Shown: positions 3,475 to 20,192 of the stretch, in pieces
Layout: each line of letters begins with the position of its first letter
How positions within the stretch are numbered: position 1 is the stretch's first letter
Virus record (IMG/VR): IMGVR_UViG_3300000115_000276
Location: 1-20,232 of that record
Source of the DNA: a virus
Strand: one strand, 5' to 3'
Length of the DNA: 20,232 nt
The notes under the pieces: model-generated
What the model saw: the letters and a program-made list of their open reading frames with translations, nothing else
The model's database searches: none
What the model was told of the DNA's origin: nothing
Translations under genes and position numbers: made by a program

Positions 3475-4092
3475 TTAAGAAGCAATATCATAACCAGTGA
3501 TTGTAATAATTAATCTACCCGCTGTATAAGTGGCATCTGTTGTTGCACCCGCAGTTAAATACAGATACTGATCTGCCGCGATATCGCCACCAGCGACTAA
3601 ACTACCTGCCGCTAAGTCACCTGAGTTGATAATTAAAGTCTCAGTTAAATCAGAAATAGGCGTATCTTCGACACCTGTAGCTTCTGTAGCAGAATGTAGA
3701 TTAATGTCTGGATCTCCACCCGCAGGTGTTTCAAGACACATCATAGTGACACCAAAAACTGTACCTGAGTTAGCAGTAGTTACCTGACCAAGGTAGGCAA
3801 CTCCATCACCGTCTTTACCAATAATATCTCCCGCCGCTGTTGAACGCAGTCCAGTTAGGTCGATCATTATTGTTGTTTTAACAATATTCACATTTGTAGT
3901 GGTATCACTCTTAAAACGCTCAACTTGTGTTACATAAACAGCCGCAGTGCCTTCTATTCCTGCACTTCCAGCGGCTTCAACAGCCATTTTATTACCACTG
4001 GTAATTGTAACAGTACCTGTTGTTGCATTTTTTGTTATGGTTTCAAAACCATTTTCTGAACGGACTGGGCCGTTAAATGTTGTATTAGCCAT
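3475..4092 (-). CDS. Phage structural protein, decoration/head-associated type (205 aa)
   Basis: The opening MANTTFNGPVRSENGFETITKNATTGTVTIT is the hallmark of a conserved marine-phage virion protein that is often found beside the major capsid gene. The rest is Thr/Gly/Ala-rich and beta-rich, typical of surface or decoration proteins. A strong AAGGAG site precedes the ATG. It lies 103 nt downstream of the 54-aa membrane protein, across a gap that contains a hairpin at 4119-4137. There is no known catalytic activity, and the exact virion location is unknown. Confidence 0.68.
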   Translation of the reverse strand: MANTTFNGPVRSENGFETITKNATTGTVTITSGNKMAVEAAGSAGIEGTAAVYVTQVERFKSDTTTNVNIVKTTIMIDLTGLRSTAAGDIIGKDGDGVAYLGQVTTANSGTVFGVTMMCLETPAGGDPDINLHSATEATGVEDTPISDLTETLIINSGDLAAGSLVAGGDIAADQYLYLTAGATTDATYTAGRLIITITGYDIAS

Positions 4093-4118
4093 TTTAATCT
4101 CCTTGTCGTGGCAAATGT

Positions 4119-4137
4119 CAGTCGCGGGATGCGACTG
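4119..4137 (-). other. Small hairpin in the leader of the 205-aa structural gene
   Basis: CAGTCGC and GCGACTG form a 7-bp perfect stem around a 5-nt loop, 27 nt upstream of the start at 4092. On the minus strand a TTGACA (4136-4141) overlaps the stem, but no acceptable -10 box is found 16-18 nt downstream, so I do not call a promoter. There is no U-run after the stem, so it is not an intrinsic terminator. It may be an mRNA processing or stability element. A second weak pairing (AGGTAG with CTACCT) lies just beside it at about 4141-4164. Confidence 0.35.
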
Positions 4138-4195
4138 TCAAGGTAGTTACAGGTTACACTACCTCTTTGTAAAAAGAAAGAGTGCAACCTTTAAT

Positions 4196-17155: not shown

Positions 17156-17497
17156 GTGGGCTGTATAGAAATTCTACTCGCAATTTCACTGCACTTGGGC
17201 ATGGACGGAGACTACAATGCAGTACACCCACACGCCAGATGTAACATAGATGACTCAATATTCGGCGTATACTACAACTCACTCAACAATCTCAGCTTCT
17301 ACGCCGCTAGAGAATTCAAATTCGGTTACTTCTGGGACCAAAGAATCGAACTAGGCTTCGTATCAGGCTACTCATCCAGCACAGTAACACCCATCATTCG
17401 ATACAAGATCGAAAACTTTTTCATCTCACCCAGCTACGAGACACTCAATGGGGACAACAACTACGGCCTAGTCGTCGGGTTCGAGTTCAAACTTTAA
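17156..17497 (+). CDS. Small beta-barrel-like protein, the only plus-strand gene (113 aa)
   Basis: A GTG start at 17156 has AAGGA 7 nt upstream. The sequence alternates short amphipathic strands (SIFGVYYNSL, LSFYAAREFKFGYFWDQ, IELGFVSGYSSS, VTPIIRYKIE, NFFISPSYETL, YGLVVGFEFKL) and ends in Phe-Lys-Leu after an aromatic-hydrophobic strand, like a minimal outer-membrane beta barrel. LGMDGDYNAVHPHAR near the N-terminus is a motif I recall from other marine-phage proteins, and it precedes the strand region. A short hydrophobic start (ILLAISLHLG) is not a full signal peptide. Codon use is strongly C-ending (all Tyr TAC, almost all Phe TTC), unlike every other gene here. Function unknown; a surface-exclusion or host-envelope role is only a guess. 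Confidence 0.6.
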   Translation: MGCIEILLAISLHLGMDGDYNAVHPHARCNIDDSIFGVYYNSLNNLSFYAAREFKFGYFWDQRIELGFVSGYSSSTVTPIIRYKIENFFISPSYETLNGDNNYGLVVGFEFKL

Positions 17498-17752
17498 TTT
17501 TTTTTTATAAAATTTTTTTTTGGGGTAATCGTTTGAGAGAAACTGGGTGTAAAGGCCCTCCGCACTACCATAATCTATTTCGGGGGTTCGCATAAGTCAA
17601 AATCCGATCCGATGTAAATCGAACAATTGTTCTAGGGTACCTACCACCATATCCCAGATAGTCCCTCACGCCCGATATTAGCGCCACCAACAACCCGAAC
17701 AATTGTTTTGGTTAGTATCCCTGCTTAGAAAACATAGCGCCAATGTGCGGGC
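17498..17752. promoter_or_regulatory. Non-coding regulatory gap with palindromes and CCGAT repeats
   Basis: No credible gene was found here. It holds poly-T/A tracts at 17498-17521, a CCGATCCGAT pair at 17604-17613, GAACAATTGTTC at 17621-17632 (perfect palindrome) and GAACAATTGTTT at 17697-17708. A minus-strand TTGACT (17595-17600), 17 nt, TAGATT (17572-17577) resembles a promoter, 4/6 at -10, just downstream of the palindrome. Any transcript from it would run antisense through the plus-strand gene toward the virion array. Confidence 0.45.
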
Positions 17753-17780
17753 AAAAAAAAGAGCGGGATAAAACCCGCTC
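17753..17780 (-). terminator. Intrinsic terminator after the amidoligase gene
   Basis: Minus-strand GAGCGGG and CCCGCTC form a perfect 7-bp GC-rich stem with a 6-nt loop, followed by eight T. It lies 31 nt past the amidoligase stop, so the amidoligase has its own 3' end. Confidence 0.9.
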
Positions 17781-17800: not shown

Positions 17801-17828
17801 ACTTGCGATCTTTATCTAGATCGCAAGT
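17801..17828 (-). other. Hairpin spanning the amidoligase stop codon
   Basis: ACTTGCGATC and GATCGCAAGT form a perfect 10-bp stem around an 8-nt loop. The stop codon (17812-17814) lies in the loop. There is no T-run after it, and the real terminator follows 21 nt later. It may protect the mRNA 3' end or slow ribosomes at termination. Confidence 0.5.
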
Positions 17829-18948
17829 CGATTATTCTATTCTGGAACCATTCGAAAACAGGGTCAGAAACACTTGCCCAAATTGACGCGCTACCAATTC
17901 TATTTTCTGGCATCAATCTTGGACCTGTGGGTTGGATTTCATACGACCTTACAATCTCGTATCCATTCAAGTGAGTGCCGTCCCCATAACGATTACCAAA
18001 GGTTGCTTGGTCGTATTGTATGACGGCTCGCGTCCTATCAAAATCCAATGTTTCTAACCTGTTTCTAATCTCTGTAATCTGTCTTCTAATATCGGCATCG
18101 GTTCCACCTGTGGCGTTCATAATTTCTTGCGTTGCCACACCACCACGTTGACGTGCCATCTCATACACAACACCAACCCTAGTTCCTCTTCTGAATGGTG
18201 CATTTTCTGGGGTAGTAATTGTAATTGGTTCACTTCCTATTTCAACTCTGTTATCCACAGTTTGTGCGACTAGGGTTAAAAGAAATTCTACCCAATGCGT
18301 GATCTTGTCTAGTTCTATTGTACCACTTGCTTGCCGAAATTCTATAGTGCCTTTTGAAGTCCAAGGTTGTAAGTTAATAACGCAATACTTTCCCATGGCA
18401 TTGGCTATAAGCTCTTCTATAGTATCGCCAACAATTGTTCTGGTTATGGGATTGGCCATATTGTGATTAGTTCTAGATGGTGGAAAAAAACCATTTATCG
18501 AAATTTGATTTAATTGATATCTTTCCATGATATCTTTTACAGCAATTGCGTCCATTGGCTCTTCCAAACATTCTAATTTAAGAACGTCTATATTCCCATG
18601 CCTTTGCATACTTTGAATACATTGACCTGCAAATGTGACTAAATTAATATCATCTTTTATTTTGGCGTTACCTATATGAACATGCATACCGCAACTTCTA
18701 TTTACTGTGGCACCTTTTCTTTGAGTTAGTTCTATTACGCTTTTGATGTAATCAATTGAGAACTGGTTATAAGGTAATGGTGGAAATGCAATTTCTAGAT
18801 CTACACCTGTGGTGCCATCGGGTCCACAAGGTACGCCATTAATTCCTGCATCTATAAAAAACTGTGGAAAATCCTCCCAACTTAATCCTGTTCCTGTAAG
18901 TGAAAATTCTAGTTCTAATCCAAACAATCTGTTTTTAATATTTGTCAT
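17812..18948 (-). CDS. Amidoligase (glutamine-synthetase-fold COOH-NH2 ligase, 378 aa)
   Basis: The protein shows the putative-amidoligase family pattern in order: GLELEFS (residues 10-16) with the ExE pair, VDLEIAFPPLP (49-59), CGMHVHIG (86-93) and KGTIEFRQASGTIELDKI (199-216), which is the conserved EFR/GT block. Family members use ATP to join a carboxyl group to an amine, forming amide or isopeptide bonds, and are known to occur with GGCT-like partners. The visible acidic, His and Arg residues are intact, so it is probably active. The extra C-terminal about 130 residues (ADIRRQITEIRNRLETLDFDRTRAVIQYDQ onward) are helical and less conserved. AGGAAA precedes the ATG. The target is unknown; candidates are a virion protein, a cell-wall peptide or a small metabolite, all inference. 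Confidence 0.85.
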   Translation of the reverse strand: MTNIKNRLFGLELEFSLTGTGLSWEDFPQFFIDAGINGVPCGPDGTTGVDLEIAFPPLPYNQFSIDYIKSVIELTQRKGATVNRSCGMHVHIGNAKIKDDINLVTFAGQCIQSMQRHGNIDVLKLECLEEPMDAIAVKDIMERYQLNQISINGFFPPSRTNHNMANPITRTIVGDTIEELIANAMGKYCVINLQPWTSKGTIEFRQASGTIELDKITHWVEFLLTLVAQTVDNRVEIGSEPITITTPENAPFRRGTRVGVVYEMARQRGGVATQEIMNATGGTDADIRRQITEIRNRLETLDFDRTRAVIQYDQATFGNRYGDGTHLNGYEIVRSYEIQPTGPRLMPENRIGSASIWASVSDPVFEWFQNRIIDLRSR

Positions 18949-18977
18949 TGTGTTTCCTCATATATTTAGTGTTTTGC

Positions 18978-19009
18978 TAGGCGTTATTGCCTAACACCTT
19001 AAGGTGTTA
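18978..19009. promoter_or_regulatory. Palindrome and hairpin in the amidoligase leader
   Basis: TAACACCTTAAGGTGTTA (18992-19009) is a perfect 18-bp palindrome. A second inverted repeat TAGGC/GCCTA with a 6-nt loop lies at 18978-18993 and shares its right edge. Both lie 30-61 nt upstream of the amidoligase start. The larger one overlaps a weak minus-strand box TAACAC 17 nt after TTGACT (19027-19032), so it could be a repressor operator. It has no T-run. Confidence 0.55.
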
Positions 19010-19106
19010 CATGGGATTTAATGGGAAGTCAATAGATAAACACTATATTTCTATATTTATTTTACTTTTGTTTATTGGGTCAATAACGCTTACCTATTTG
19101 AGATCT

Positions 19107-19144
19107 CGCGTTTCCATTATAAGGAACGCGCATATATATGTGTA
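19107..19144 (-). promoter_or_regulatory. Amidoligase promoter candidate within a hairpin
   Basis: On the minus strand TACACA (19139-19144, 4/6 to -35), 17 nt, TATAAT (19116-19121, perfect -10) points to the amidoligase gene, with a leader of about 160 nt. The -10 box lies in the loop between CGCGTTCC and GGAAACGCG arms (19107-19130, one bulge), so it may be shaped or bound as an operator. Confidence 0.5.
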
Positions 19145-19190
19145 TGTATGTATATGTATATATGTATGTATATATGTATATATGTGTATT
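19131..19190. repeat. TA/TG microsatellite tract
   Basis: About 60 bp of irregular TATG/TATA repeats on the plus strand lie between the promoter candidate and the CCGAT repeats. They are easily melted DNA, and could affect promoter spacing. They code for nothing I can support. Confidence 0.8.
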
Positions 19191-19240
19191 CCGATCCGAT
19201 CCGATCCGATTCTCCGATCCGATCCCGAACAATTGTTCGG
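19191..19240. promoter_or_regulatory. CCGAT repeat array and CCGAACAATTGTTCGG palindrome
   Basis: Four tandem CCGAT units (19191-19210), a TCT break, two more units (19214-19223), then the 16-bp perfect palindrome CCGAACAATTGTTCGG (19225-19240). The same two elements in the same order (CCGATCCGAT then GAACAATTGTTC) occur at 17604-17632. The site lies upstream of the amidoligase promoter candidate and just past the terminator of the GGCT unit. A protein-binding site is likely, identity unknown. Confidence 0.65.
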
Positions 19241-19252
19241 CTTATTCTCCAG

Positions 19253-19280
19253 CAAAAAAAAGACCCAGCCGAAGCTGGGC
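19253..19280 (-). terminator. Intrinsic terminator after the GGCT-like gene
   Basis: Minus-strand CCCAGC and GCTGGG form the stem (extended by further pairs) with a UUCG tetraloop, followed by eight or nine T. It ends the transcription unit that starts at the 116-aa gene. It comes 13 nt after the stop of the possible 29-aa membrane peptide. Confidence 0.9.
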
Positions 19281-19293
19281 CAGTTGAGGCGTT

Positions 19294-19383
19294 CTAGTGA
19301 AAAAAGATTAAAAGCATTATCGGAGTGGCGAACACACAAACCACCCCAATAATGTCAACGAGAAGTTTAAACTGATTGGACAT
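19294..19383 (-). CDS. Possible 29-aa membrane peptide
   Basis: ATG at 19381-19383 to TAG at 19294-19296 encodes MSNQFKLLVDIIGVVCVFATPIMLLIFFH, a single hydrophobic helix with a short polar start. It overlaps the last 17 nt of the GGCT-like gene and fills the space up to the terminator at 19253-19280. A GCGGGG lies 7 nt upstream, so the ribosome-binding site is weak. Such short membrane peptides are common in phages but also arise by chance in AT-rich DNA. The evidence is the position, the clear hydrophobic run and the tight end near the terminator. Confidence 0.35.
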   Translation of the reverse strand: MSNQFKLLVDIIGVVCVFATPIMLLIFFH

Positions 19384-19780
19384 ATTTAAACCCCGCTTCT
19401 TCTGCCGCAAGTCTTAACGGTGTAGTATCAAGACCGAAATCCCTATATCCCTCGCCAATCATTCTATAATAACCGTGGCTCGGTGGTGATAGAGCTGTAC
19501 TATCAACCATAAAATAACAAATCCATTTATAGCTATTGATCTTCCTCCTGTTGTATAGGGTTGGGTAACCTTCGACCCGATCCAGTGAGCGCAAGCATTG
19601 CGTTGTAATTTTCCAGAGAACAACGGGAGCTACGCAGTCATCTTCAGGTACTAAGTCAGCAACCCCTCGGAAAACTAAGCGGTAGTTGGGGAGGTAAAAC
19701 CCCCCCATCGGTTCAGCATCAGGGCAACGCGCCTTCATGGATTCTAAGTTCGTATTCATTCCATATGATAGATAATACAT
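19367..19780 (-). CDS. Gamma-glutamylcyclotransferase-like (GGCT/AIG2) protein (137 aa)
   Basis: MYYLSYGMNTN at the start is the YGxN substrate-binding turn of the GGCT fold (residues 6-9). LDRVEGYPTLYNR carries the expected catalytic glutamate (E70) in the LDxxEG motif. Between them lies GFYLPNYRLVFRGVADLVPEDDCVAPVVLWKIT, the usual strand set. The family cleaves gamma-glutamyl-amine bonds by forming 5-oxoproline. An upstream TTG start would give 142 aa, but the ATG at 19778-19780 has GGGAGGG 7 nt upstream and overlaps the previous stop by 1 nt, which implies coupling. It lies one gene from the amidoligase, fitting a make/remove pair for a gamma-glutamyl-like bond. Confidence 0.82.
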   Translation of the reverse strand: MYYLSYGMNTNLESMKARCPDAEPMGGFYLPNYRLVFRGVADLVPEDDCVAPVVLWKITTQCLRSLDRVEGYPTLYNRRKINSYKWICYFMVDSTALSPPSHGYYRMIGEGYRDFGLDTTPLRLAAEEAGFKYVQSV

Positions 19781-20130
19781 TAACAGCCCTCCCAAAGTTC
19801 TTCCAAGACAGAATCTAAATCCATATAGTCATGGTCGTAACTAGCAAATTGTGTTTCATTCCACCAATAACCCTCGACGGTTTTAGTTTTAGTATTGATC
19901 CAAATATTAGGGCCGCCAAAAGCAACGCAAACCCTTGCACCTAGAAACTTTTTTTCACTTGAAACGATGTATTCAATGTCAAGCGCATCGGCTAGGTAAT
20001 CGTACCCATCAACGTTCTCGCCATCATCGGATGTATAGCCATTTTGTAAATCTTGTGCGATTGACTGAACATTATTTTGTAAGAAATTTGTTCTTACATT
20101 ATTAGATGTTAATTTAACTGTATTTGTCAT
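19780..20130 (-). CDS. Conserved small acidic phage protein of the amidoligase cassette (116 aa)
   Basis: The protein begins MTNTVKLTSNNVRTNF and has a FLGARVCVAFGGPNIWINTKTKTVEGYWW middle (strands with Trp/Gly) and a DYMDLDSVLEELWEGC acidic helix at the end. I recall similar small proteins (KLTSNNV...FGGPNIW...EGYWW) in other phages but know no function. It has an AAGGAA site upstream and overlaps the GGCT-like start by 1 nt, so it is co-translated with it. It may be an accessory subunit or an immunity-like protein for the cassette; that is inference. Confidence 0.65.
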   Translation of the reverse strand: MTNTVKLTSNNVRTNFLQNNVQSIAQDLQNGYTSDDGENVDGYDYLADALDIEYIVSSEKKFLGARVCVAFGGPNIWINTKTKTVEGYWWNETQFASYDHDYMDLDSVLEELWEGC

Positions 20131-20163: not shown

Positions 20164-20192
20164 TTTATATCCCACCTTATCTATAGTGTCAA
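20164..20192 (-). promoter_or_regulatory. Strong sigma70-type promoter of the GGCT unit, with an SP6-like core
   Basis: On the minus strand TTGACA (20187-20192, perfect), 17 nt, TATAAA (20164-20169, 5/6) is a near-consensus bacterial promoter 34 nt before the 116-aa gene. The same stretch contains TGACACTATAGA (20180-20191), which matches the core of the SP6 phage RNA polymerase promoter. Either host polymerase or a phage single-subunit polymerase could use it. No such polymerase gene is in the window. Confidence 0.7.

Follow-up and report, generated by a model that had tools for sequence, protein, structure and literature searches.

The 20,232-nucleotide viral sequence analysed here (IMG/VR record IMGVR_UViG_3300000115_000276; hereafter, the window) carries a minus-strand locus encoding an amidoligase of the PF12224 family, a gamma-glutamyl cyclotransferase (GGCT) and an acidic protein of 116 residues, accompanied by copies of a short palindrome (Table 1). 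The initial annotation, made from the DNA letters without database searches, had placed three small minus-strand genes at 17812-20130, and three open reading frames (ORFs) were indeed found at these positions. Its division of the genes into two adjacent transcription units is plausible, given the terminator-like hairpins after the GGCT and amidoligase genes and the promoter-like sequence upstream. The window is a fragment: IMG/VR contig 3300000116_000060 is 99.99% identical to it over 17.7 kb, and in this longer contig the enzyme genes lie between the small and large terminase genes (terS and terL).

Table 1. Coordinates of the features of the locus in the window, with the evidence or corresponding positions for each.
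Feature	Position	Strand	Basis or remark
Amidoligase_2 (PF12224), 378 aa, glutamine synthetase-fold ligase with C-terminal helix-turn-helix extension	17812..18948	-	Pfam, AlphaFold2, Foldseek
Amidoligase catalytic domain, residues 1-234	18247..18948	-	E12, E14, D44, E52, H89, H91, R159, K187, E203, R205, K215 invariant or nearly so in 42 relatives
Predicted winged-helix domain, residues 253-340, recognition helix 284-300	17929..18192	-	AlphaFold2 model; DUF3489/HTH_23 in relatives
GGCT (GGCT/AIG2 family), 137 aa	19367..19780	-	PF06094, phrog_2520, human GGCT structures
116-aa acidic protein, exchangeable cargo	19780..20130	-	No family match; model pLDDT 42.8, uninformative
Palindrome GAACAATTGTTC between GGCT and amidoligase	19227..19238	.	
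Palindrome copy, 1 mismatch, within amidoligase ORF	18429..18440	.	
Palindrome copy, 1 mismatch, downstream of amidoligase terminator-like hairpin	17697..17708	.	
Palindrome copy GAACAATTGTTC, downstream of amidoligase	17621..17632	.	
Intrinsic terminator-like hairpin after GGCT, followed by T-run	19262-19281	-	L008 8850-8869
Intrinsic terminator-like hairpin after amidoligase	17761-17780	-	L008 10351-10370
Sigma70-like promoter TTGACA-17-TATAAA, 5' of 116-aa gene	20164..20192	-	Read directly; unlisted by stricter scan

Two enzymes that travel together

The window amidoligase matched PF12224 well above the curated cut-off (E=1.8e-15; 58 bits against 22) as well as phrog_2443 (2.4e-10), and a PF12224 match was obtained for 42 of 42 clade relatives. 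The metal- and ATP-binding residues of the family (ExE, E, HxH and ExR) are all present: E12, E14, H89, H91, E203 and R205 are invariant in the 42 sequences, and E52 is conserved in 98% of them. The AlphaFold2 model was of high quality (mean predicted local distance difference test, pLDDT, 92.3), and in a Foldseek search its N-terminal part matched YbdK, glutamine synthetase, gamma-glutamylmethylamide synthetase (GmaS) and PafA; for the first three the probability was 0.99-1.00 and E ranged from 4e-4 to 9e-4, with low TM-scores of 0.31-0.34. The second enzyme matched PF06094 (6.6e-7) and phrog_2520 (1e-20), its profile matched human GGCT structures (6.7e-13), and Y6, G7 and N9 of the YGxN loop, together with the catalytic E70, are invariant in 20 relatives. 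Its start is likely the ATG at 19780 (137 aa) rather than the TTG at 19795; this ATG shares one base with the 116-aa gene, its A being the final base of that gene's stop codon (TAATG). Since the catalytic motifs are invariant in 42 amidoligases and 20 GGCTs, the identification of the enzymes goes far beyond chance. Both are real and, to judge from their sequences, look catalytically intact. Thus, the two assignments of the initial annotation, an ATP-dependent amide-bond ligase of the glutamine synthetase fold and a GGCT-like enzyme, were sound: the modelled amidoligase matches ligases of that fold, and neither enzyme has lost its catalytic residues.

Relatives were collected by scanning IMG/VR with the palindrome, with an amidoligase motif and with distant amidoligases, which yielded 224 amidoligase loci (88 non-redundant). 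Some 88 related, non-redundant marine contigs have the amidoligase downstream of terS. GGCT was found in 41 of the 42 loci that include terS and at least 2.5 kb upstream of it, the exception being a short contig, and in 18/18 long amidoligase contigs, a set from which the palindrome-only record G019 was left out. Co-occurrence of the two enzymes, which the initial annotation had proposed to look for, is therefore strong, even though three gene arrangements exist: GGCT may be placed upstream of terS, on one strand or the other, or else in the terS-amidoligase interval. One palindrome-scan record that has no GGCT (L054) was rejected as a clade member, being probably a chance match; it has no amidoligase or TerS match either. 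RimK-type ATP-grasp and glutamine amidotransferase (GATase) genes were detected in none of the 18 clade contigs, several of which are fragments, while control genomes were positive for both; the COOH-NH2 ligase PF14395 was likewise found in 0/18, but the control genomes gave no match for it either. No close relatives were found in bacterial genomes. In a 65-kb contig (G005, IMGVR_UViG_3300032224_000782), two long ORFs of 742 and 664 aa at 55560-58187 carry amidoligase domains, 29 kb from GGCT.

The initial annotation called the substrate undescribed, as far as could be told. Loci combining a PF12224 amidoligase and a GGCT have been published for phages of Pseudoalteromonas, Pseudomonas, Clostridium and Terrisporobacter (PMC5498523, PMC11945000, PMC11253131, PMC11318856), and are mostly read there, following Iyer et al. 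(2009) and Hardies et al. (2013), as a peptidoglycan-modification module, with peptidoglycan as the proposed substrate. For phage UFV-P2 the same two families were listed, with no peptidoglycan reading (PMC3890496). Our own analysis bears out this gene arrangement for LUZ24, Bacillus phage 031MP004, two gut phages and TPDSL_ph1. The pairing alone, being already in the literature, is thus not new. Like the window, LUZ24, phiEco32, RIO-1, PSA-HP1 and UFV-P2 hold both families in one phage region (PMC5498523, PMC3890496), but the marine clade differs from this LUZ24-type module in having no detected RimK-type ATP-grasp or GATase and in possessing a helix-turn-helix domain, a palindrome array and a location around terS. 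In the gut and Bacillus phages (Ca. Heliusvirales, 031MP004, TPDSL_ph1) the two genes also adjoin or lie within about 2 kb of each other, in some cases near the terminase; their amidoligases, however, are only about 290-320 aa long in those aligned, and are devoid of the C-terminal extension of about 130 aa found in the clade.

A helix-turn-helix extension and a palindrome array

Phage amidoligases from outside the clade align with the window protein only up to about residue 252. Beyond this point, the AlphaFold2 model shows helices at 257-265, 273-280 and 284-300, followed by strands at 309-312, 329-332 and 335-338, which is the order of a winged helix. DUF3489 was matched in 26/42 relatives (best 1.3e-6) and HTH_23 in 16/42, and helix-turn-helix matches in a PDB search were weak. 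Mean entropy is 1.52 in the helix-turn-helix part and 2.03 in the catalytic part, the former thus being the more conserved.

The second distinctive element is a 14-bp palindrome, CGAACAATTGTTCG, often extended to ATAACCCGAACAATTGTTCGGGTTAT. It was present in 76/76 covered terS-amidoligase intervals, at 2-13 copies each (median 5; 386 copies in 135 kb), and in all 74 contigs picked by the amidoligase motif alone, where shuffled sequence would give 0-0.1 per 13 kb. The first copy lies 114-280 bp downstream of the terS match and successive copies are then a median of 95 bp apart; further copies flank and enter the amidoligase gene at distances of up to roughly 4 kb from terS, standing some 70-80 bp past its stop, often 85-135 bp ahead of its start and sometimes in frame within the ORF. 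Such arrays between terS and cargo genes were noted in L008 (7310-7806) and in 93 viral stretches, and within IMG/VR the exact 19-bp pattern hardly occurs outside the clade. The large terminase of the window shares about 55-61% identity with its counterparts in HTVC023P, HTVC027P, 023Pt_psg01 and DSL-LC04, and the Pelagibacter phages HTVC023P and HTVC027P share its gene order (terS ... terL ... capsid). However, HTVC027P has neither amidoligase nor GGCT, and the palindrome is present in neither of these two phages. It was not found in four sister phages without amidoligase, nor in 80 further sister contigs selected by terminase, only 9 of which reach 6 kb or more upstream of terL. A role as a host regulon site was rejected because an 18-bp form of the palindrome gave only 28 scattered single matches across chromosomes, with no enriched taxon.

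Both the helix-turn-helix domain and the array went unmentioned in the initial annotation and appear to be new; no paper combining amidoligase, winged helix and phage was found in the literature searched. In one subclade the recognition helix carries INTIR where the others have ISEIR, and the site core is shifted too, with forms such as CGAATAATTGTTCG, CGAATTATTGTTCG and CGAACTATTGTTCG, and this co-variation of helix and site is suggestive of binding, but only that. Helical phasing of the copies is weak (R=0.136 versus about 0.075) and was not used as support.

A possible DNA-binding ligase and the alternatives

We read the locus as a pared-down form, with two enzymes, of the phage amidoligase/GGCT module already known. 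In the proposed mechanism, the amidoligase would activate a carboxylate at the expense of ATP and couple it into an amide, its ligase domain acting on a small molecule or a cell-wall peptide, and GGCT would free gamma-glutamyl groups as 5-oxoproline, either from the ligase product or from a related host compound. Binding of the amidoligase to the palindromes, predicted on account of its helix-turn-helix domain, the array and the co-variation of helix and site, would take place through the C-terminal winged-helix domain, and the bound protein would, like BirA, tune the transcription of the locus that encodes it. We put forward this double role, binding and self-regulation alongside the processing of a substrate by ligase and GGCT, as the best supported of the readings considered, though a tentative one that falls somewhat short of an even chance. 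BirA and the other group II biotin protein ligases are ATP-dependent, amide-forming ligases that carry a DNA-binding domain and repress their own pathway (PMC4016012, PMC6391492). The likeness would be one of working logic, as a predicted helix-turn-helix domain is fused to a ligase here too; by contrast, the ligase fold is a different one, and the DNA-binding domain is N-terminal in BirA but C-terminal, with predicted DNA binding, in the clade amidoligase. No biotin ligase was among the 50 Foldseek matches listed, the best being ligases of the glutamine synthetase fold. As BirA demonstrates, ligase-regulators of this kind can exist, but the comparison is one without homology.

A more doubtful claim is that the clade amidoligase is a sequence-specific DNA-binding enzyme acting on the palindromes beside terS, where it would either regulate the locus in response to its own substrate or form amide bonds on a protein held at the DNA. 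If this were true, it would be the first PF12224 ligase, as far as is known, to act at defined DNA sites; palindrome binding would link the making of amide bonds with gene control or with DNA packaging in phages. Amidoligases occur widely among phages, and what has been said of their substrate is, as far as we found, guesswork. The large, uncultured marine lineage described here offers a minimal module, with two enzymes in near-constant co-occurrence, a predicted DNA-binding domain and a 14-bp palindrome.

Several observations weigh against binding and self-regulation by the amidoligase. Amidoligase and palindromes both mark one clade, so their link may reflect common ancestry: no clade member was found with only one of the two, and a TerL scan for amidoligase-free members returned only the sister group, which leaves ancestry and function inseparable. 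The shift from ISEIR to INTIR with its altered core is a single evolutionary event, seen in 8 loci, and its Fisher value is thus no independent test. In addition, the net positive charge of the winged-helix domain is near nil (median +1), and the distance at which the array starts from terS fits TerS as the binder equally well.

The last point bears on a serious rival, namely that TerS binds the palindromes as packaging sites (pac- or cosB-like), the two enzyme genes being cargo that has no relation to them and occupies a variable terS-terL slot. The succession of copies close behind terS speaks for it, and the palindrome-free sister phages mostly have a TerS too diverged for tblastn. Nevertheless, copies also surround and penetrate the amidoligase gene far from terS, and GGCT co-occurs even when it lies on the far side of terS, which indicates that the enzymes are not random cargo; we consider this explanation rather unlikely. 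Somewhat less so, though still unlikely, is a modification of peptidoglycan or the envelope of the phiEco32/LUZ24 type, in which the enzymes would remodel wall peptides and block superinfection, the C-terminal domain aiding only substrate binding or oligomerisation. This proposal has been published (PMC5498523, PMC11945000, PMC11253131) and also extended to OM43 phages, although the published version is itself a proposal, as far as found. In LUZ24, a single run of genes encodes both families together with RimK-type ATP-grasp, GATase and COOH-NH2 ligase; of these three partners, the first two went undetected in the 18 clade contigs. A PagP-like outer-membrane protein is encoded by the next gene in the window and in its relative G003; a conserved helix-turn-helix domain, however, would be unexpected in a wall enzyme.

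The palindromes could also be recombination or regulatory punctuation for cargo exchange, with a logic like that of the stem-loop cassettes of T4-type phages. They do bound swapped genes in near-identical phages (a 99-aa insertion in G002 and an amidoligase allele swap in G003), but their conservation is just as high in places without a visible swap, a recombinase acting on them was not identified, and such a role would be compatible with protein binding; we regard it as improbable. Modification of the virion or capsid, as suggested in the initial annotation, found no support and is very improbable: the proximity of structural genes is the sole point for it, whereas the enzyme genes sit in the variable terS-terL region and no co-varying virion partner emerged from the data examined.

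Exchangeable cargo and neighbouring features

The 116-aa protein had been described as conserved and acidic, and as the third member of a cassette. It is acidic, but conserved is too strong a word: Pfam and PHROG profile searches gave no family match, homologues were found in 4 phage records and 3 viral contigs, and the gene is missing from nearly all clade relatives. A three-gene cassette was rejected and the protein placed outside the system because in the close relative G002 an unrelated 89-aa gene (phrog_3199) takes its place, with the GGCT start still abutting, and because homologues occur in phages without amidoligase or GGCT. The median identity between clade loci is 80% for TerL, 50% for GGCT and 34% for the amidoligase. 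G003 and the window are 92-99% identical in flanks, GGCT and terL, while their amidoligases share 45% identity; in an allele swap of this kind (L089 8392-9552 versus window 17812-18948), palindromes lie near both segment ends. Many clade members (L047, L058, L114 and others) carry a conserved, palindrome-bounded 99-aa gene (p99) between terS and the amidoligase that is missing from the window.

On the opposite strand, adjoining the amidoligase, an ORF at 17156-17497 (+) matches phrog_3600 (PagP, lipid A acylation/antimicrobial peptide resistance; 3.1e-11); this possible outer-membrane protein is retained in G002 and G003. The spacer between GGCT and amidoligase contains, at 19132-19225, low-complexity ATACATATATAC-type repeats and repeated TCCGATCCGATC units, which are unusual in phage intergenic DNA. 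Finally, downstream of the major capsid gene, a Mu-gpT-DE RNA (Rfam RF03012) was matched at 4090-4143 (-), with 67.1 bits against a gathering score of 49.

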